This document shows positions 4,743 through 37,063 of a DNA stretch of 37,157 bases, in pieces. The DNA is from a virus, in the IMG/VR virus record IMGVR_UViG_3300021519_000024, positions 1 through 37,157 of that record. One strand, 5' to 3'. A model generated the notes under the pieces. The model made no database searches, was not told the origin of the DNA, and saw nothing but the letters and a program-made list of their open reading frames with translations. Made by a program: the position numbers and the translations under genes. Within the stretch, counting starts at the first letter, position 1. Each line of letters opens with the position of its first letter.

Positions 4743-4781
4743 AATACCCTCCTTCGTTGATTTGAATTTTTCTACTAACTA

Positions 4782-4928
4782 TCATTCGTCCTCGTTCGGA
4801 TCGTAGGCGTACATAAGCTTACCATTTTCCCACCACCCCTGAATACCATTGGTGGACTCAAACGCAGGGCCGTCAGTGCGGTGACGCTTGCTCCAGATAC
4901 TTTTCTTAATTGTCTGCGCGCTAAACAT
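4782..4928 (-). CDS. small protein with RHRTDGPA motif (48 aa)
   Basis: The ORF carries KRHRTDGPAFESTNGIQGWW followed by ENGKLMYAYDP. The same motif recurs in the protein at 36724-36885 (RHRTDGPAVEY, WWEKGK), so the genome holds at least two paralogues. Proteins with a HRxDGPAxEYxxGxxxWW pattern occur in many phages; their role is unknown to me. The start at 4928 follows AAGAGAG and lies 11 nt after the IMPDH-like gene. Confidence 0.65.
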   Translation of the reverse strand: MFSAQTIKKSIWSKRHRTDGPAFESTNGIQGWWENGKLMYAYDPNEDE

Positions 4929-4939
4929 GACTCTCTTTT

Positions 4940-5944
4940 CTAGACCCGAACTTGGTTCTCTCTATTTGAGCCATGGGAAACTAGAATAAACTCATGATTA
5001 TCTTGCATAGTTTGTATATTTACCCCTCCAGAATAACTAATTCCAGATTTTATCCCGCCCATTAGCGAATTGATTATCGACTCAAGAGACCCGTCTATAC
5101 CAACAGTAGATTCGACCCCCTCTACAAGCCCCTCTGCCAACCCCGCCTCTGTTTTTGCCCTACGACTCGCCATTCCATAATATGAGCCTGGATACGGTGC
5201 TTCGATAGCGCCTGCGATCAATCTACCTATCATAACACTAGATGCGCCAGCAGCAAGAGCCTTAACGATATCTCCAGAAGTGTTAATTCCCCCATCAGCG
5301 ATGATGTGTGTATATGACCCCGAGGTTGCCTCGACACACTCAACTACCGCAGATAGCTGAGGGAGGCCGTGTCCGGTCACCTCCCGCGTCGTGCAAGCTG
5401 CCCCAGGTCCAATTCCAACTCTAAATGCAGACACGGGAAAACGGCTTAGGATCCATTCTACGGCCTCCCCGGTAGCGACACTTCCAATGATCAAATCAGA
5501 GTCGTAAAGAATTCTATCGGGGATGCCTAAGTACCACCTCTCCGTAGAAACGGAGTGAGCATGGGCTACATCTAAACAGAATAAACGGCAACCTCTCTCA
5601 TAAAGAAAACTCATTCTGTCCGAGGGAGATTCAGTTGTTCCTATCGAACAACCGATGGCTCTCCCATTCGGATTATTACACGTCGCTACACTCCACTCAT
5701 TGGCCTGATTCTCGATACTCTGATTTCTGTGGATAAATGCTCCACCTCCAAGTTCTGCCATTTTTCTTGCAACAGTACTATCTGTTACTGATGACATCGG
5801 TGTAGAAACTATCGGAATTGATATACTAACGCCATTTGTTAGGAAAGTTGAGGTGTCTACAGATTGCCTACTAAGTACTTGCCCCTTTCTTGGGACGAGA
5901 AGAACATCATCGTAAGTTAGACCGATTTTATTTCTCAGATTCAC
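4940..5944 (-). CDS. IMP dehydrogenase / GMP reductase family protein without CBS domains
   Basis: This is a (beta/alpha)8 purine nucleotide oxidoreductase. The N-terminus [18 protein letters not shown] is the family signature. The catalytic loop is [11 protein letters not shown] at 177-187 with the nucleophile Cys184, and IADGGI near 221 binds phosphate. The 334-aa length leaves no room for the CBS pair of IMPDH. The flap lacks the Arg-Tyr dyad of IMPDH, while the C-terminus ([16 protein letters not shown]) resembles IMPDH more than GMP reductase, so direction and substrate are unresolved. The start is GTG at 5944 after GGAGAGAATTC; an in-frame TTG lies at 5965. Confidence 0.8.
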
Positions 5945-8710: not shown

Positions 8711-8905
8711 TTATCCACCAACGACAGTCTTATCAATGGTAAACTCAACAAGGTCTCCACGCAAGGCTTTCTCATCTAATTCGTTGAGAGCCTCTTGCAT
8801 CTGACCGTGCTTAAAGTCAATCCGCAGGAGTCCGACATTGTAATTAAACTCTGATCTAAGCTTATGACGAAGTTTCTCTTTTGCTATTTTAATTTCATCT
8901 GCCAT
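8711..8905 (-). CDS. small hypothetical protein (64 aa)
   Basis: A charged amphipathic helical N-terminus (KIAKEKLRHKLRSEFNYN) is followed by a helix LNELDEKALRGDL and a short strand end. It directly abuts the exonuclease gene and overlaps the upstream gene by 22 nt, with AAGGAGAAG before the start. It could be a partner of the exonuclease, by position only. Confidence 0.5.
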   Translation of the reverse strand: MADEIKIAKEKLRHKLRSEFNYNVGLLRIDFKHGQMQEALNELDEKALRGDLVEFTIDKTVVGG

Positions 8906-9279
8906 GATCTAATAATCTTCTCCTTATATTGTTTGTTTTGTTCTGTACCTTCGATATACTTCTGAATTCTCTCCTCAGCTCTTTTTTCTTCATCTTTATA
9001 TTCAAAAGTTCCCGAAGTGTGATATCTCTGTCTGCGACTCCACTTGTGTCTATAGGTACCCAGAGTTTGACCTCTTCTTCTCATTGAACAAAGGAGTTCC
9101 CATCTTCCTCCGGCTGGCCGCTGTTTCGAAGAGTGCCATATTTTATCTACCCCGCAGCAGTCACAGACTGGCCAGGGTTCCCCAGCCTCAAGCAGAAGTC
9201 TTCTCTTCTCTGCTGATCTAACGGCAGAATATTTCTGCCTGCTATCTTTGAGATTAGTTGAGGTTTTGTTTTCTAACAC
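8884..9279 (-). CDS. basic zinc-ribbon or HNH-like protein
   Basis: The 131-residue, strongly basic protein has a CDCC knuckle at residues 39-42, His49 in KIWHSSKQRP, GGRWELLCSMRRRG with Cys64, and long Lys/Glu helices at the end. The spacing resembles a reduced HNH or zinc-ribbon core, but a complete HNH triad is not visible. The start is GTG at 9279 without an SD, 6 nt after TAGTCT. With a perfect TTGACA 17 bp further up, the mRNA is probably leaderless. Confidence 0.55.
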   Translation of the reverse strand: MLENKTSTNLKDSRQKYSAVRSAEKRRLLLEAGEPWPVCDCCGVDKIWHSSKQRPAGGRWELLCSMRRRGQTLGTYRHKWSRRQRYHTSGTFEYKDEEKRAEERIQKYIEGTEQNKQYKEKIIRSWQMKLK

Positions 9280-9285
9280 ATAGGA

Positions 9286-9314
9286 AGACTACAGGAAATC
9301 TACTCAACTGTCAA
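9286..9314 (-). promoter_or_regulatory. leaderless sigma70-type promoter inside the portal gene end
   Basis: TTGACA (9309-9314), 17 bp and TAGTCT (9286-9291) are followed by 6 nt and GTG at 9279. The -35 encodes the last Leu-Thr of the portal protein, so promoter and coding sequence are superposed. Confidence 0.7.
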
Positions 9315-11396
9315 GTCTTCATCTGAATCTTCTTCGACCCAGTTATGAAGAAATTCTATTCTGGGTACGGATCCTATCTTCTTAGGTAGCCCAATGGTGA
9401 TCCCAGTCTCATCTTCATTAGTATACCCGAAACTACTCTGAGAGAAGAGGGGAGCGTTCGTTCCTCCTGGGCCAGGTAGTCTCTCTGTAGATTCCTCGGG
9501 AGCGTTACCACGCTCAGGATTTCTACCAGTTAATCCTCCTGGGGGTGGTGGCATGGGAATACCCCCACTGCCACCGGGAGAGCCAGCGCCTCCACCCAAT
9601 CCGGCGGGACCTCCCCCTCCAGACAGTCCTCCTGGACCCGAAGGAATGCCTGAGGCTCCCGGTTGACCAGAACCCTGAGGGGCACCGGGAGCTAGTCCAG
9701 CCATCTGCATCTCAATAAGGAGATCTTGAGGCACCGGAAGATTTAGAGCAAGGAGAATGTTATATGCCTTGACCTTGGCCTTTTGCTGAGCGACGGTTTT
9801 CTTAACAAGCTCCTCTTCTACCTGATCAAGAGATTCGTCAAAATCATAGTCCATTCCCATCGCTGCATGTTGATCGGGGATCGGGATGCCCTGCTGTTTG
9901 AGACTTAATATAAACTGCCTCTGAGTGGCCTCATCTCTAAGATCAAGAACCTTCATTCTGACCTCTGGAATCATGAGCTTCTTCCTTCGCTCTATTCTTT
10001 GATTACCATCTTCATCATGGACAAGGACCTCTTCATAAATCGGCACTCTAGTATCGCCTCTCTTTTCATAGGCATAGTGCCCCTGAGCCTCTGCCACAAT
10101 CTTGGCCCTGTCGGATATATGCCTCTTAAGAAAATTCTGATACGTCCTTAATATCTGATTAAGGAATTCTGCCTGCAATGCGCTTGACGCATAAGGAGTC
10201 GAAGCATTTCCTCCACTCAAGAGTTGGGGATTTACTCCAAAAGATTGCATGATCCGTCTTTCTATGCGATCAAAATCGTTATCGAGTCTTGGCATATTTT
10301 CTCTACCAAAAACATTTTGAATATCTATTCCAAAGTGGTGAACAATGAGTCTAAAGTCTGAGGATAAGGCTATGTCGAGATCGTTCCGGAATGAGCTTAT
10401 TTCTTGTGGGCCTGGAACCCAAGGCATACGACCGGCCCCCATATCTTGGACTCCAAGCTTAGCTAGAATGAGAGGAGAGTAGAGGCGCTCTGCTATGGCG
10501 TCTTGAGACGCCAGAAGCTTCTCTTCGTGCATAAGAGTTCTAAGTGAGCGAAGCAAGATTGGGGTTCCATATAGATCTCTAGGTGACGCCTTGAACGCAA
10601 CCTGTTTCATAAGAACATCTGAGACCGGAATATTTCGTCCATTCTGAAGAAATGGAATTAGGTCTGAGTAATTCTTCTCCAATAAGGCGAATTGCGGAGC
10701 CGGTCGCCTATTCTTCACTAGATCGACAAGTTCTTTAGGAGGAACAATAAAGAACTGCTCTCCTCCTATTATTGGAAAACGTTTAACCTCAACAAGGGTT
10801 GGGTCCATAAGTTCCTCTGATTCCCAAATTCCAAGGATCTCATTAAAGGTTCCCATTGGGAAGGACTGACCGAAGCACCAATATTCCCTCCCCATATCGA
10901 CCATGAATTGCTCATAATCAAGTCTATCAAAGAATAACTCTCGATAGAAATCATTTAGGGATTCATCTGGTCCAAAAAAGTCAACACCAACGAGGGGGAA
11001 TCTCGTAAAAATATCAACAAGAATGGGAATTAGATAGTGTGTCCTATAAAATAGGTCTAGCCACTTATATAGCTCAAATCTATGCTTCTTATTATTTATA
11101 TCATATGGTATCTGGGTCTGTTCAAAATACTCCAGTGGAGAATAGAATCTTGGTATTGCAGCAAATACATCTCCACCTCCCATTGAAGAGGAGAAGCCTG
11201 ACAACTTTCTCATAGCTGGGCCTCGATTTGCCGACCTTCTTTGGGCAAACTCTCCAGATAATTCCTGGTTCCTCTGATCAACCTTTTCAAACATTCCATC
11301 ATCTGCCGTTAGGACAGATTGAGAATATGGCATCCGTGGCGTATGGATAGCTCCAGTCCGATAGTTATGAAGATCCATTCCATTAAGTATATCCAT
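9300..11396 (-). CDS. portal protein
   Basis: The 698-residue protein forms the dodecameric DNA channel at one capsid vertex. A conserved portal core lies at about residues 80-480, including RFYSPLEYFEQTQIPYD, a wing region, ASPRDLYGTPILLRSLRTLM and FGVNPQLLSGGNASTPYASS. The last has the portal-type GxNPQLLxG helix start. After it comes a helical segment, then an extreme Gly/Pro/Ser run of about 70 residues (roughly 575-645) and an acidic tail ending EEDSDEDLTVE. Lying downstream of TerL in the same direction supports the call. Confidence 0.85.
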   Translation of the reverse strand: MDILNGMDLHNYRTGAIHTPRMPYSQSVLTADDGMFEKVDQRNQELSGEFAQRRSANRGPAMRKLSGFSSSMGGGDVFAAIPRFYSPLEYFEQTQIPYDINNKKHRFELYKWLDLFYRTHYLIPILVDIFTRFPLVGVDFFGPDESLNDFYRELFFDRLDYEQFMVDMGREYWCFGQSFPMGTFNEILGIWESEELMDPTLVEVKRFPIIGGEQFFIVPPKELVDLVKNRRPAPQFALLEKNYSDLIPFLQNGRNIPVSDVLMKQVAFKASPRDLYGTPILLRSLRTLMHEEKLLASQDAIAERLYSPLILAKLGVQDMGAGRMPWVPGPQEISSFRNDLDIALSSDFRLIVHHFGIDIQNVFGRENMPRLDNDFDRIERRIMQSFGVNPQLLSGGNASTPYASSALQAEFLNQILRTYQNFLKRHISDRAKIVAEAQGHYAYEKRGDTRVPIYEEVLVHDEDGNQRIERRKKLMIPEVRMKVLDLRDEATQRQFILSLKQQGIPIPDQHAAMGMDYDFDESLDQVEEELVKKTVAQQKAKVKAYNILLALNLPVPQDLLIEMQMAGLAPGAPQGSGQPGASGIPSGPGGLSGGGGPAGLGGGAGSPGGSGGIPMPPPPGGLTGRNPERGNAPEESTERLPGPGGTNAPLFSQSSFGYTNEDETGITIGLPKKIGSVPRIEFLHNWVEEDSDEDLTVE

Positions 11397-30705: not shown

Positions 30706-32655
30706 TCATATTACACACGATTCCCCATCGCAAAACATATCTGCCATCTCATGAGTTTCCTTTTTCTTCCAATTTATCTTCTTGAGACTCTTAACATAAG
30801 AATCATATTCTGCCTCACTAATTTCTTGGTAAGGAGCCTGTTCATATCCATGGTCCTGCAACGGCAAGAATGATATAGATTTTAGTCTGCTCTCGTAGAG
30901 AGACAGTGCATGAGAGATGTCTCCAGCTTCTTCTGGTTTAAAGGTTATTGTTGCGGAAACTGCATTGTCCGACCAGTACCTATTCATTTGAGCCGCATTC
31001 TCTAGCTGCTCCCACATCGAGACCTCTGCCTTAGATCTATCGTAATACTCCTCCTTGATCGGAAAGTAAACAACTAGGGTGTTTGGTCCATACTTATCTT
31101 TTTCGATTCTATAATTTGCTTTTCTCAAGGATTCCACTAGGGGAGAATTTTCCTGAAAGCGGATCGTTCTATAGTAGAACTCTGAATGTGGATAGTGAAT
31201 ACCCGGAGTGACCCCAGGTAGCAAAGAAACTGTTCCAGAAGGCTTGACCGTTGTCTTTTTTATTGATCTTGGCACACAAAGCCAATCTGAATATATAGTA
31301 TCCAGGTCGTTGATATATGAGTACCCCTCGTCGCACCATCTCATATGTTCCCTCACTCCTATCTTCTGAAAGTTCTGAACGATTCCAGACTGGCTTGTTC
31401 CGATCCTTCGATTTCTCATCATTACGGCGTTCGAACGCTCATTATGAGTTGGAATTAGAGTTACGGTCTTGGCATATAAATATGAGAACTTTAGAGTTTT
31501 CTTATAGTCTTCAAGAGAGTCATGGCGAGATGGAAATGTCTCAACTAGGCAGCAGAGTTCTCTGTCTTCCAAAGTCTGCTCAGCACAAGGATTTACTCCC
31601 ATAACTCTATAATCCTTGCGCCCATTGTCTCCCATTCTTCCATAGTTCCTACAATTCTCCAACCACACGTATCCAGGTTCTCCATTCTTTGCTGTCATCT
31701 CAGCAACGACGGAATAGTCTTCACCAACTTCACAAGATACGCTGTTATTAGAACACCATCTGTGACTAAATAACTCATCCTGATGGATTTCAGGATTTTT
31801 TAGATTAAGGAATTCTGTATCTTGGGGAGATCCAAGAGATAGTTCTGCGGTTCTTCTGACGTTCCCAGATACCACACATTTACCTATAACATTCATCAGA
31901 TCTACAATTGCTGTGGACGTTATCTTTTCTCCGATTAGGGGAGAGAGAATCTTGTCGATATCATCAATCAGATTCATGATAGGTTCTGATCCCTCGGCAA
32001 CACCACCGAACGTCTTGATAGGTGCTCCCTTCGGTCTAATGAGCGAGTAGTCTACAGTGGAAGGTCTCGCTGAAACTCCTACGTAAGAGTTTAAAACTCT
32101 TGACGTTAGATCAACCCAACCCTCCCGAGAATCCTCGACAACATAGTCTTCAGGATGTACCCTGGGCTGTTTTATTGTCACATGTCCTGCTCCAAGGACG
32201 TCGAATCCGACGCCGACGCCGAGCATAGACATGTCCATAAGAAATGTAAAAGGCGCTGAGAAATCTGTAGAAAGATCTTTTGTGCTACACATCGCGCAGT
32301 TCATTAGCGCAGCTGCTCCGATCTTATCAATAATCGGAGTTCCCATAGCCCAAAGGCCCCTGCCTGGGGGAAGAAATTTCATGTCCCACATTCTCTGATA
32401 CATCTCTTGAGCAGATTTCTGGGATTTGGAATTTGACCATGGAAGTCCAAATGATTTACAATGGCCTTTTTGAATGGAGTAAACTCCTTCGACTACCCGT
32501 CTAAGGGTTTCCCAAAATTCTTCAGTTAGACCATTCTCTTTAATTCTAGAATACGTTCTTTTGTAGGTGACGTAACCTATAGGTCCCCAGTCCGGCTGTT
32601 TATCTATGAACTGATCTATGAAACTTTCGTTCAACTTAAATTCGAGTCCGCTCAA
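30706..32655 (-). CDS. adenosylcobalamin-dependent (class II) ribonucleotide reductase
   Basis: The 649-residue monomeric reductase resembles Lactobacillus RTPR. The active-site loop NPCAEQTLE lies near 356, with a partner Cys in ELCCLVETF near 368 and Cys in MNCAMC near 118. KPSGTVSLLPGVTPGIHYP forms the phosphate and finger-loop region. The C-terminal redox pair is CDGESC at 642-647. It reduces ribonucleoside triphosphates with a B12 radical and thioredoxin-type electrons. The start is TTG at 32655 after AGAGGGAAT. Two tandem promoters lie upstream, so expression is separate from 30662. Confidence 0.92.
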   Translation of the reverse strand: MSGLEFKLNESFIDQFIDKQPDWGPIGYVTYKRTYSRIKENGLTEEFWETLRRVVEGVYSIQKGHCKSFGLPWSNSKSQKSAQEMYQRMWDMKFLPPGRGLWAMGTPIIDKIGAAALMNCAMCSTKDLSTDFSAPFTFLMDMSMLGVGVGFDVLGAGHVTIKQPRVHPEDYVVEDSREGWVDLTSRVLNSYVGVSARPSTVDYSLIRPKGAPIKTFGGVAEGSEPIMNLIDDIDKILSPLIGEKITSTAIVDLMNVIGKCVVSGNVRRTAELSLGSPQDTEFLNLKNPEIHQDELFSHRWCSNNSVSCEVGEDYSVVAEMTAKNGEPGYVWLENCRNYGRMGDNGRKDYRVMGVNPCAEQTLEDRELCCLVETFPSRHDSLEDYKKTLKFSYLYAKTVTLIPTHNERSNAVMMRNRRIGTSQSGIVQNFQKIGVREHMRWCDEGYSYINDLDTIYSDWLCVPRSIKKTTVKPSGTVSLLPGVTPGIHYPHSEFYYRTIRFQENSPLVESLRKANYRIEKDKYGPNTLVVYFPIKEEYYDRSKAEVSMWEQLENAAQMNRYWSDNAVSATITFKPEEAGDISHALSLYESRLKSISFLPLQDHGYEQAPYQEISEAEYDSYVKSLKKINWKKKETHEMADMFCDGESCVI

Positions 32656-32722
32656 ATTCCCTCTTTTCCAAATAGTTATAATCTATATAATATATATAGA
32701 GATATTTAGTTAATTTTTATTA

Positions 32723-32751
32723 AAAGTATCTTTAGAAGTACTAAAAGTCAA
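32723..32751 (-). promoter_or_regulatory. second promoter of the reductase gene
   Basis: TTGACT (32746-32751), 17 bp and TACTTT (32723-32728) give a ~60-nt AT-rich leader. Confidence 0.5.
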
Positions 32752-32762
32752 AGTCTAAAGAG

Positions 32763-32791
32763 ATTGTAGCAATGAGTTGAGGATCTGTCAA
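32763..32791 (-). promoter_or_regulatory. main promoter of the reductase gene
   Basis: TTGACA (32786-32791), 17 bp and TACAAT (32763-32768) lie 5 nt past the end of the upstream gene, with a ~100-nt AT-rich leader to the TTG start. No B12-box or long cobalamin aptamer is visible in it. Confidence 0.75.
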
Positions 32792-32795
32792 ATCT

Positions 32796-33480: not shown

Positions 33481-33532
33481 GAGGGTGCTATGATTATCTC
33501 ATCAATTTAAACAAACAAACGTGAAGGGAAAT

Positions 33533-34651
33533 ATGATAACTAATAAAACAGCCAGTAGTCTTATTCCTATGGCAGACTCGTACCTAGAGAATAATATGAA
33601 TCTTCTCTTGATAGGTCTCCATGGAACAGGTAAAACACAATCAATTCTCGATCTTGCTGAGAGACATGGCATCAAGATCAAGTATTACTCTTGTGCAACT
33701 CTTGATCCATATACGGATCTTGTTGGTGTTCCGGTTCCCAAGATCGATGAGAATGGTCGAGAAGTTCTTAAGATGATCAGACCTAGGGAGGTTGATGAAG
33801 CTGAACTCATCTTTTTTGATGAGTTCAATCGAGCAGACTCAAAGACAACAAACGCTGTGTTTGAGATAATCCAGTTTGGATCCATCAATGGAGAGAAGCT
33901 GCCAAATCTTAGATGCTGCTGGGCAGCTATTAATCCGCCGGACAAGTCTTATGATGTTGAGGAACTTGACCCTGCTCTAATGGACAGATTCGATGCCTTC
34001 ATCGAAATTAAGCCGAAGCCGTCGATCAATTACATGGTCGAGAGAGGAATTTCTAAGTCCGTTGCGGTTGCTCTAAAGACTTGGTGGGATTCGCACAACC
34101 GAGTTAAAAGAGACTTCGCTGATTACATTTCGCCTAGAAGACTAGAGAAGATCGGTCTAGTTTATGAAAAGATGGGGAATATTAAGGCTGTTCAAAATGC
34201 TTTGCCTCCGGGCGGTAATTTTGATACCAAGAAGTTGATTAACCTTCTTGAGATTGCAACAGGGAAAAGGATTGGTGAAATCGAGACAAACAACATCGGA
34301 GGAATGCCTTCTTCAAAATTCAAGTACGCAGTTGGGTCCTTGTATAAAGACAAGGGTGCTGTCATTAAGCATCTCAAGGAGAATCCTCTCGAACTAGAAA
34401 CCCACAAGGCGGTTGTGGACGCGCTGAGGACATCTAACGTTTCTCATGAAACAATAATCAAATCCTTCTCAGATATGCTAGAGTCTGTTACTCCGAGTAT
34501 TCTAGAGGGTTATATCGCTGGACTGTCTCCAGCAAAACGAAGCCAGGTGAGATCTGCTTTCCAGGCAGCAAAATCTCAGAATAAGAACTTTAGCTCTCCT
34601 AATCTTGCTAAGATTCTTTCCAAGGGAGCCAGAAGCGGAGATTGGACATAA
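33533..34651 (+). CDS. MoxR-type AAA+ ATPase
   Basis: The 372-residue protein has Walker A GLHGTGKT at 28-35 and Walker B LIFFDEFNRA at 92-101. Sensor 1 lies in AAINPPD and the Arg finger in DPALMDRFD near 152. A C-terminal helical extension of about 180 residues follows. MoxR ATPases act as chaperones with VWA partners, or as the small motor of metal chelatases (CobS, BchI). ATG at 33533 (SD AAGGGAAAT) is chosen over GTG at 33521. It lies 3 nt before the VWA gene. Confidence 0.85.
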   Translation: MITNKTASSLIPMADSYLENNMNLLLIGLHGTGKTQSILDLAERHGIKIKYYSCATLDPYTDLVGVPVPKIDENGREVLKMIRPREVDEAELIFFDEFNRADSKTTNAVFEIIQFGSINGEKLPNLRCCWAAINPPDKSYDVEELDPALMDRFDAFIEIKPKPSINYMVERGISKSVAVALKTWWDSHNRVKRDFADYISPRRLEKIGLVYEKMGNIKAVQNALPPGGNFDTKKLINLLEIATGKRIGEIETNNIGGMPSSKFKYAVGSLYKDKGAVIKHLKENPLELETHKAVVDALRTSNVSHETIIKSFSDMLESVTPSILEGYIAGLSPAKRSQVRSAFQAAKSQNKNFSSPNLAKILSKGARSGDWT

Positions 34652-34654
34652 AAT

Positions 34655-35923
34655 ATGGAGCATGAAGCCAAATATTCTGAAGCAATTCGTCTACTTGATA
34701 GTCAGTACGCATACTTTGTGACTCACGTACTTAATATCGGAAGACCCACTCACACAAATGCTATTCCAACAGCTTGTGTGAGTGTAAGTAAAGATAACCG
34801 AGGAGCAATTGGAAATAATTTCAGCTTCGCTTTTAATCCTCAGTTCGAAATTAGTCTTAGTGTTGAAGATTATGCGTTCGTTATGTCACATGAAACCATG
34901 CACATCCTTCTTGACCATTTGGCTCTTGTTTCTAGATTTCAAGATAAAGTCAGGTTCAACATCGCAGCAGATTGTGTTATCAATGACTATCTTGTCGAAT
35001 CGGGATTGGCTCCTAGTGCAAAACTTTATGAGAATCTAATGTCCGGAGAAAAAAATGTTGGGTATAACTGCGCTCACGCTACTGTGAGTCAAGTCTACGA
35101 TGATATTCCACAGAGCGTTGTTGATCAGATGGGCAAGGGGATGCAGATTGATTCTCATGACTGGATCCACGATCCAGACGGACTGATGAAGAAAATTCTT
35201 GACGAAATTGCGAAAACGGCACCTATTCCGGGTGATTTGAAAGATATCAAGGACGATATTGATCAGCAGAGTGATATAACTAGTATGAAAAAGGCTGGGG
35301 ATGGGTCAACAGATCTTCAGACTTTCATCGATACACATGGAGTATCGATGAACTGGGTAAATCTTCTGAAAGAGATCAATCCGGACATCTTCAAGATGAA
35401 GGGGGGAAAACTTCCGAGGCCCATGTATCACAAGAGACCTAGAAAGCTAGGGTCATTTCCCGAAACGATTCTTCCGATTAAAGAAACTGGTAGACAGAAG
35501 AAGCACGGAGATAAACCTGTGATTTTTATGGCACTGGATACATCAGGTTCAATCGGAAATAATACTGCCAGAAAGTTCATAACTCTAGCTAGATCAATTC
35601 CTAGATCAGAAATTCATCTTGAAGTTGTCACCTTTACTGCATCAGTCAGACCTCTCGATCTCGATAATCCGAATTTTATGAGTGGAGGAACTGCGTTTAG
35701 TCCAATTGAAAAATATATTAGAGATATCGTTATGCCAAAGTATAAGAATAAGTATCCAAGTTCAGTCGTCGTCATCACGGATGGAGAGGCTTCCTTTGAC
35801 TCACTTCGCCCCCTTAAGGAGAATCAAGATAATTGGACCTGGCTCCTCGAAGGATATGGAAGTAGTTATTATCTAAAGAGTCTGTTTGGTAAGAAGAAGA
35901 AATTGTCGGAATTTATCAAATAG
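34655..35923 (+). CDS. HExxH metallopeptidase-like / VWA protein (DUF2201 type)
   Basis: In this 422-residue protein the N-terminal part has SHETMHILLDH with the HExxH zinc motif at 79-83 and AADCVINDYL downstream. A linker with FIDTHGVSMNWVNLLKEINP follows. The C-terminal VWA domain keeps the MIDAS residues: ALDTSGSIG near 297, SGGTAF near 343 and VVITDGEA near 375. This pairing with a MoxR ATPase is a recurrent two-gene unit in bacteria and phages. The substrate is unknown: a protein remodelled by the ATPase, or a metal-insertion target. Confidence 0.82.
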   Translation: MEHEAKYSEAIRLLDSQYAYFVTHVLNIGRPTHTNAIPTACVSVSKDNRGAIGNNFSFAFNPQFEISLSVEDYAFVMSHETMHILLDHLALVSRFQDKVRFNIAADCVINDYLVESGLAPSAKLYENLMSGEKNVGYNCAHATVSQVYDDIPQSVVDQMGKGMQIDSHDWIHDPDGLMKKILDEIAKTAPIPGDLKDIKDDIDQQSDITSMKKAGDGSTDLQTFIDTHGVSMNWVNLLKEINPDIFKMKGGKLPRPMYHKRPRKLGSFPETILPIKETGRQKKHGDKPVIFMALDTSGSIGNNTARKFITLARSIPRSEIHLEVVTFTASVRPLDLDNPNFMSGGTAFSPIEKYIRDIVMPKYKNKYPSSVVVITDGEASFDSLRPLKENQDNWTWLLEGYGSSYYLKSLFGKKKKLSEFIK

Positions 35924-35954
35924 TTTATTCTAGAGGGCTTCTTTATGTTAATAT

Positions 35955-36055
35955 GTGAGTAAGTGGTAGGTATAGTCCGAAGTGCTCCATGTAGCAGAGA
36001 ACTGGGCAGTTGCCCCTTAGGAACGGTTATAGTTAACAACCTACCGCTTACTTAC
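35955..36055 (+). ncRNA. putative structured RNA element closed by a 17-bp stem
   Basis: Arms 35955-35971 (GTGAGTAAGTGGTAGGT) and 36039-36055 (ACCTACCGCTTACTTAC) pair over 17 positions, 15 Watson-Crick and 2 G-T, closing a 67-nt interior. Inside, TGCT/AGCA, AACT/AGTT and GGGC/GCCC can form competing small hairpins. TAATAT ends just before the 5' arm and could be its -10 box. The region has no credible ORF. It may be a noncoding RNA or a leader element of the next gene. Canonical tRNA features are absent. Strand is inferred from the flanking genes. Confidence 0.55.
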
Positions 36056-36065
36056 CAACACCTTC

Positions 36066-36084
36066 TCACTATAAAATAGTGGAG
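36066..36084 (+). promoter_or_regulatory. hairpin next to the ribosome binding site
   Basis: CACTAT, AAA and ATAGTG (36067-36081) form a 6-bp perfect dyad directly before GAGGAACT and the ATG at 36090. It could partly hide the SD or act as an operator; the TATAAA inside it might also be a -10 box. Confidence 0.4.
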
Positions 36085-36089
36085 GAACT

Positions 36090-36362
36090 ATGTCTACATC
36101 ATCAACATCATTTCAACTGAACTTACCTGCTGATTATCCTTATAATCAGGATTTCTCGGCTCAACTGGCAAACATCTCTACAGATACAGAAACCCAACCT
36201 ACTGTTTCGACCTATGATAGATCAAGACAAGTAGCGCGAGCAGAATATTCAGCAGAAAATAGAAATATACAGGTTCAAACAAAAGTGTTTAGAACGGATC
36301 AGGATAATGGATCTGTTGATTTCCAATCATGTTACACAACGGTTAATAAGTCTAAGATATAA
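36090..36362 (+). CDS. hypothetical protein (90 aa)
   Basis: The Ser, Thr, Gln and Asn-rich sequence begins MSTSSTSFQLNLPADYPYNQ and ends CYTTVNKSKI. The middle has a repeated RSRQVARAEYSAENRNIQVQ pattern. The composition suggests a partly disordered or virion-associated protein. SD GGAGGAACT. No family is recognised. It forms a pair with the next gene, 12 nt downstream. Confidence 0.6.
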   Translation: MSTSSTSFQLNLPADYPYNQDFSAQLANISTDTETQPTVSTYDRSRQVARAEYSAENRNIQVQTKVFRTDQDNGSVDFQSCYTTVNKSKI

Positions 36363-36374
36363 AAACGAGGATAT

Positions 36375-36644
36375 ATGAGTTATAATCAGAAAAATTACAG
36401 AAAGACAGCGGCCACTGGTGTTTTCCATACAGATGGAATAGGAGTAAGTCCTAACGATCCATCTCAAGAATACCTAGGCTGGAATAATGATTTGGTAGAT
36501 GAGGGTATCGACTTAACTGCTGGTAAGACTACATTAACACAGTTTAATCAGAATTCACAGTTGAATACCTCGGGGAATCAAGCTCAAGTAGATTCGTTTG
36601 ATGAAGATAGAGCTTATGATCCAGTGCTTAGGCAAAGTTCCTAA
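36375..36644 (+). CDS. hypothetical protein (89 aa)
   Basis: The Asn, Gln, Gly and Asp-rich protein begins MSYNQKNYRKTAATGVFHTD, contains EYLGWNNDLVDEGIDLTAGK and ends PVLRQSS. GAGGATAT is the SD. A strong terminator follows 16 nt after the stop, so 36090-36644 ends a plus-strand unit. The composition resembles its neighbour and suggests a related role. No family is recognised. Confidence 0.6.
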   Translation: MSYNQKNYRKTAATGVFHTDGIGVSPNDPSQEYLGWNNDLVDEGIDLTAGKTTLTQFNQNSQLNTSGNQAQVDSFDEDRAYDPVLRQSS

Positions 36645-36660
36645 GAGAATAAGTGGGTTG

Positions 36661-36686
36661 AGAAAGGAGGGGAAACCCTCCTTTCT
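36661..36686 (+). terminator. intrinsic terminator, possibly bidirectional
   Basis: AGAAAGGAGGG, a GAAA tetraloop and CCCTCCTTTCT form an 11-bp perfect stem whose 3' arm holds a T-run. A promoter -35 starts 1 nt later. Confidence 0.8.
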
Positions 36687-36687
36687 A

Positions 36688-36716
36688 TTGACCGAGGAGA
36701 GCATCTCTGCTACGAT
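36688..36716 (+). promoter_or_regulatory. leaderless sigma70-type promoter
   Basis: TTGACC (36688-36693), 17 bp and TACGAT (36711-36716) are followed by 7 nt and ATG at 36724. The geometry is the same as at 2135-2163 on the other strand, again right beside a terminator. Confidence 0.7.
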
Positions 36717-36723
36717 AGTACTC

Positions 36724-36885
36724 ATGTCAGAAATCCTGAGTTTCGGGAGTTATGAGCGGCTAAATAAGAAAGGCCAGCGTCACCGCACTGACGGCCCTGC
36801 GGTTGAGTACGCCAATGGTGGGCTAGAGTGGTGGGAGAAGGGCAAATGCTTCTACTACTATAATCCTCTTGCGAATAATGACTAA
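36724..36885 (+). CDS. small RHRTDGPAVEY-motif protein (53 aa)
   Basis: The sequence has GQRHRTDGPAVEYANGGLEW and EKGKCFYYYNPLANND, a paralogue of the 48-aa protein at 4782-4928. The family motif is widespread in phages without known function. The start at 36724 is chosen from the leaderless promoter; earlier in-frame starts run through the terminator. It overlaps the next gene by 8 nt. Confidence 0.65.
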   Translation: MSEILSFGSYERLNKKGQRHRTDGPAVEYANGGLEWWEKGKCFYYYNPLANND

Positions 36886-37063
36886 GGGGCACCTTCACAT
36901 TGACGAAGCTGGAGTAGTTCTTCGTTGCTATCATTCTTGTAAGAACCTTTTAATCACCTGGCAGTTTTGGATAGGGACTACTTTGGGGTATCCAATGGAA
37001 CACTTGCTTTGGGAAAAAACTCCAGGATTCACATGGCTAGCTCAGATTTTAGGGTTGAAATAA
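36878..37063 (+). CDS. small aromatic-rich hypothetical protein (61 aa)
   Basis: The protein starts MTKGHLHIDEAGVVLRCYHS and contains CKNLLITWQFWIGTTLGYPM and EHLLWEKTPGF, ending LAQILGLK. Cys/His near residues 17-22 could bind metal, and the hydrophobic Trp-rich middle might be membrane-associated. The ATG overlaps the preceding gene by 8 nt, giving coupling; the SD is weak. No family is recognised. Confidence 0.55.
   Translation: MTKGHLHIDEAGVVLRCYHSCKNLLITWQFWIGTTLGYPMEHLLWEKTPGFTWLAQILGLK

Follow-up and report, generated by a model that had tools for sequence, protein, structure and literature searches.

A 17-bp stem in a phage intercistronic gap occupies the position of a tRNA gene in the closest relative found, next to a Shine-Dalgarno-masking hairpin common to both phages

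Is a long stem in the noncoding gap between two codirectional phage genes a conserved RNA element, and what could it do there? The DNA analyzed here (the window) covers an IMG/VR virus record over its full length of 37,157 bp. Its genes include those for a DNA polymerase of the DnaE type, a ribonucleotide reductase, a terminase and the pair of AAA ATPase and DUF2201 proteins. Judged by polymerase and terminase, the nearest cultured relatives, with identities of about 30-36%, are large phages that infect Gordonia, Rhodococcus and Mycobacterium, which makes an actinobacterial host likely. The gap consists of 166 noncoding bases between the DUF2201 stop at 35923 and the start of a 90-aa gene at 36090. 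A preliminary description had singled it out as the only sizeable gap between codirectional genes; others exist, for example at 4743-4939 and 32656-32795, according to a crude gene call that left the gap at 35923-36090 itself unlisted. The gap and its neighborhood comprise the following features.

33521-34651, AAA ATPase gene, directly 5' of the DUF2201_N gene
34655-35923, plus strand, gene for a DUF2201_N putative metallopeptidase, 5' of the gap (protein matches)
35945-35962, plus strand, mini-ORF MLICE with the Shine-Dalgarno (SD) sequence GAGGG at 35933-35937 and its stop codon inside the 5' arm; may be chance
35955-35971, plus strand, 5' arm of the 17-bp stem, GTGAGTAAGTGGTAGGT (helix search; pair probabilities 0.90-1.0)
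35972-36038, plus strand, 67-nt interior with several near-equal folds, no more stable than shuffles
36039-36055, plus strand, 3' arm of the 17-bp stem, ACCTACCGCTTACTTAC (helix search, gap shuffles)
36062-36085, plus strand, SD-pairing hairpin CUUC-u-CACUAU/AAA/AUAGUG-GAGG (folding, SD-pairing rank)
36090-36362, plus strand, gene for a 90-aa protein with an 82-aa homologue in the relative, 62% identical (tblastn)
36375-36644, plus strand, gene for an 89-aa protein, second of a two-gene unit, 63% identical in the relative
36661-36686, plus strand, terminator-like hairpin with a GAAA loop, 3' of the 89-aa gene (fold z-scores)

The stem itself was recovered as originally described: 35955-35971 and 36039-36055 form an unbroken helix that includes two G-U pairs and encloses an interior of 67 nt. 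With up to three G-U pairs and a loop of up to 120 nt allowed, it is the longest helix of the window. Dinucleotide shuffles of the 166-nt gap never gave 17 pairs (0 of 1500) and gave 16 pairs twice. Because 2 of 25 surrogates generated for the complete 37 kb with a Markov model contained a helix of at least 17 pairs, the stem is notable mainly for its place in a noncoding gap. On the plus strand, the 101-nt element folds with -38.1 kcal/mol (z = -3.77; none of 200 shuffles was as good), compared to a weaker -31.4 kcal/mol on the minus strand, and the arms pair with a probability of 0.90-1.0 when computed with 900 nt of context. The competing hairpins reported for the interior were found as several alternative folds within about 1 kcal/mol, but this is expected of random sequence, as 683 of 1000 shuffles were at least as stable, so that the closing stem alone is unusual. 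The arms are of low complexity, one side consisting of G, A and T only. That both non-Watson-Crick pairs are G-U is weak evidence for pairing as RNA, with an estimated chance of about 10-25% under random substitution.

Does the element carry its own transcription signals? The TATA-like box noted in front of the 5' arm is present as TTAATAT, but the region 35900-35955 contains no TTGAC-17-TANNNT site. No intrinsic terminator was found in 35700-36700; the element's loop measures 67 nt, and its 3' arm is not followed by a T run. Across the window, the promoter-like pattern TTGAC-16/18-TANNNT is enriched, with 14 sites found compared to 4.2 expected, including those at the following positions.

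2135, 3660, 7132, 9286, 30671 and 32763, minus strand, promoter-like sites (TTGAC-16/18-TANNNT)
36688, plus strand, promoter-like site (TTGAC-16/18-TANNNT)

The site at 36688 is located 3' of the terminator-like hairpin and 5' of a third small gene (36869-37063, with a 58-aa match in the relative), and it has a counterpart in the relative. The terminator-like hairpins with GAAA loops that follow the 89-aa gene are found in both phages (z = -3.68 and -4.24); for the one at 36661-36686, the terminator tool did not detect the T run it looks for. Structure prediction for the 90-aa protein was uninformative (pLDDT 43).

To place the element among known RNAs, it was compared with Rfam 15, where neither the gathering threshold nor E values up to 10 yielded a relevant family; the tRNA model was not reached even at E 10. 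ARAGORN found no tRNA gene at default settings, with the search also covering intron mode, and none on the plus strand at the element with lowered thresholds in bacterial mode. A covariance model built from the single sequence (R1) matched only the element itself when run on the relative introduced below, 13 further virus records, the retrieved loci and the tRNA region of T4. Likewise, no homologue was detected by blastn among phages or by nhmmer and blastn in all fetched loci. Searches of viral collections and a genome collection with flanking and more distant proteins showed the locus to be shared with one relative only, and an alignment of DUF2201 over 30 records gave a single weak, partial match.

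The closest record found, IMGVR_UViG_3300027782_000054 (G001; 95 kb), has a terminase 80% identical to that of the window and is colinear with most of it. The genes in the vicinity of the gap are 58-68% identical (tblastn), with 62-68% protein identity for the flanking genes, and their order is the same, with AAA, DUF2201, gap, 90-aa gene, 89-aa gene and the third small gene. Neither the arms nor any other sequence of the element could be aligned to the gap of G001, which is instead filled by a tRNA-Arg(UCU) gene (L048 5703-5775, minus strand). Eight tRNA genes lie in the first 6 kb of this contig and twelve in the whole contig, and the tRNA in this slot may just be part of the cluster. A colinear relative with a tRNA-Arg in place of the stem, together with the lack of any arm-bearing homologue in the records searched, leaves the earlier proposal that RNA pairing is kept unsupported. 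The observation is thus sound as a long RNA-strand stem and not sound as a conserved RNA element. Helices of 16-17 bp occur elsewhere in G001 as well; one of 16 bp was considered as a counterpart and rejected as chance, since it lies inside a coding gene. Further along in the relative (L048 3979-5061, minus strand), the small third gene is followed by tRNA-Ile and then by an endolysin-like gene with CHAP and peptidoglycan-binding domains; the window ends just short of the point matching this CHAP gene region.

Is anything in the gap common to both phages? The second small hairpin, described as abutting the next ribosome-binding site, was confirmed by folding, and an equivalent is present at the same place in the relative.

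L048 about 5659-5685, minus strand, hairpin of G001 equivalent to that at 36062-36085 (folding, SD-pairing rank)

The G001 hairpin reads UCUUCCUAUG / CUUAAAA / UAUAGGAGGA. Both hairpins form about 10 pairs that include the SD, with -9.0 kcal/mol in the window and -10.7 kcal/mol in G001. When all starts with a recognizable SD were scored, that of the 90-aa gene had the strongest SD pairing in both phages, ranking first of 31 in the window and first of 64 in G001. As the window hairpin had been flagged beforehand, the rank in G001 tests the finding independently, with a chance of about 1 in 64. The SD is held in the helix with a pairing probability of 0.95-0.99 in the window and 1.0 in the relative. 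By eye, the two stems differ by matched changes (CA on one side, UG opposite), although two sequences cannot establish covariation, and counting changes on an automatic alignment of the hairpins was uninformative. Deleting the element in silico left the masking of the SD unchanged, so that the role of the stem does not have to involve the hairpin, and a function as its insulator was not supported. In silico loss of the 5' strand of the hairpin did not clearly free the SD, which was still paired in shortened transcripts. The SD-masking hairpin common to both phages and the tRNA in the slot of the element in the relative are the most solid results of this analysis, and a reading of the gap as a cis-regulatory leader is plausible.

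Hidden ribosome sites of this type are known from T4, where those of e, soc, 49 and I-TevI are held in helices on long early transcripts, while late transcripts of e and I-TevI, lacking the 5' strand of the helix, free the site (PMC3014915; PMC2988022). Similar to the leaders of these genes and of Aeh1 mobE, the window hairpin pairs the SD of a small phage gene within a longer unit, and it includes an AT-rich string (TATAAAATA, 36070-36078). The sequences are unrelated, however, and upstream there is in addition a 17-bp stem in the window or a tRNA in the relative. The masked gene fits the first half of the T4 scheme, the hidden site. For the second half, release on a late transcript, the window offers only the AT-rich TATAAAATA; the candidate late-promoter motif TATAAATA/TATAAAATA was not enriched at gene starts. 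An SD-masking hairpin in both phages suggests T4-style delayed translation in phages that are distant relatives of the large actinobacterial phages.

We tentatively favor the possibility, short of an even chance, that the gap is an intercistronic mRNA leader made of the SD-masking hairpin common to both phages and a replaceable upstream module, the stem in one and the tRNA in the other. Such a leader would connect the AAA/DUF2201 genes to the two-gene unit at 36090-36362 and 36375-36644, which would end at the terminator-like hairpin. The stem would be transcribed along with the operon; that no consensus promoter was found directly 5' of the stem is consistent with read-through transcription. 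The SD-masking hairpin would limit translation of the read-through mRNA until opened, be it through an internal start, through cleavage or through a binding protein. The stem, in turn, is probably an RNA-processing or stability boundary, and its most economical role would be to act as punctuation between two mRNAs or to protect their ends. It may act as an RNase III-type double-stranded cut site or as an exonuclease block, splitting upstream from downstream mRNA in the way that RNase P/Z excision of the tRNA would in the relative. An RNase III step as such, suggested by helix length alone, is less likely than the leader as a whole; 17 bp is short for this enzyme. The early-gene RNase III sites of T7 are double-stranded stems in short gaps between codirectional genes, a setting that resembles the window; the T7 sites are hairpins that lack a multibranched interior of 67 nt like that of the element. 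In the tRNA punctuation of organelle operons, tRNAs separate protein genes, as does the tRNA-Arg of G001 (with putative excision), whereas the slot of the window phage has no tRNA. If the stem were processed like the tRNA it replaces, two RNA-processing signals would have been swapped naturally at a single operon junction; taken by itself, without homologues, the stem is an isolated curiosity. It is rather improbable that, in this phage lineage, one slot holds exchangeable RNA-processing modules (tRNA or 17-bp-stem RNA) which cut the transcript and thereby set up a masked two-gene unit near a lysis-type (CHAP) gene.

Several other readings have to be weighed against such a leader, of which a stable small RNA and a functionless inverted repeat come closest. 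The same slot, which in the relative holds tRNA-Arg beside a run of further tRNA genes, might instead carry a discrete gene for a small stable RNA, trans-acting or a decoy, whose ends the long closing stem would shield. A parallel would be T4 rnaC and rnaD, for which no role is known (PMC3014915). These are noncoding RNA-like and adjoin tRNA-Arg in T4; they do not match the model of the element, and rnaC has a tRNA-like T arm that the element lacks. We regard such an RNA gene as unlikely, given that neither a consensus promoter of its own nor a directly following terminator was found, that the interior is no more structured than shuffles and that no homologue is present in the records searched. 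The same random-like interior, the low-complexity arms with G, A and T only on one side, the absence of the stem from the sole relative and the 16-17 bp helices elsewhere in that relative, including one in a coding region, would suit a young, functionless inverted repeat that is now drifting, left for example by replication template switching or as the remnant of an insertion. This origin, too, is on the unlikely side: both differences between the arms leave G-U pairs on the plus strand, the stem is placed in a noncoding gap and not in the coding DNA that makes up the bulk of the sequence, and the plus strand folds better than the minus. In T4 rnaC (L061 1409-1547, minus strand; z = -4.57), the terminal hairpin CCGGG-UUCGAAU-CCCGG resembles a T arm, and the RNA therefore looks tRNA-like.

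Imperfect terminal repeats of 17 bp around a 67-bp core also have the size of a MITE, and a function at the DNA level, as a mobile element of this kind, an inverted repeat bound by a protein or a site of replication, was considered. It is very unlikely, as the element occurs once in the window and not at all in G001, its flanks show no direct repeat, as a MITE would require, and the strand-specific G-U pairs weakly favor RNA. Still less probable is a leader-peptide attenuator in which ribosomes on the MLICE mini-ORF open the stem and thereby alter downstream expression. The mini-ORF has good SD spacing and ends inside the arm, and an imperfect helix between the 5' arm and the anti-SD strand of the hairpin at the RBS, with 9 of 11 positions paired, also looks feasible by eye; however, a mini-ORF of this kind arises in about 6% of shuffles, none is found in the relative, and this alternative helix is much weaker than the 17-bp stem. 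A tRNA in degenerate or aberrant form, which the tRNA-Arg in the same slot of the relative might bring to mind, is largely refuted by the negative ARAGORN and Rfam searches and by the absence of T-loop and D-loop motifs.

A further difference between the two phages was observed at some distance from the gap. Their ribonucleotide reductase genes take up the same position (30706-32655 in the window, 8871-10718 (L056) in G001), but they are only about 21% identical, compared to 33-72% for genes nearby. Judging from these identities, it is probable that one reductase gene was replaced by that of another lineage.
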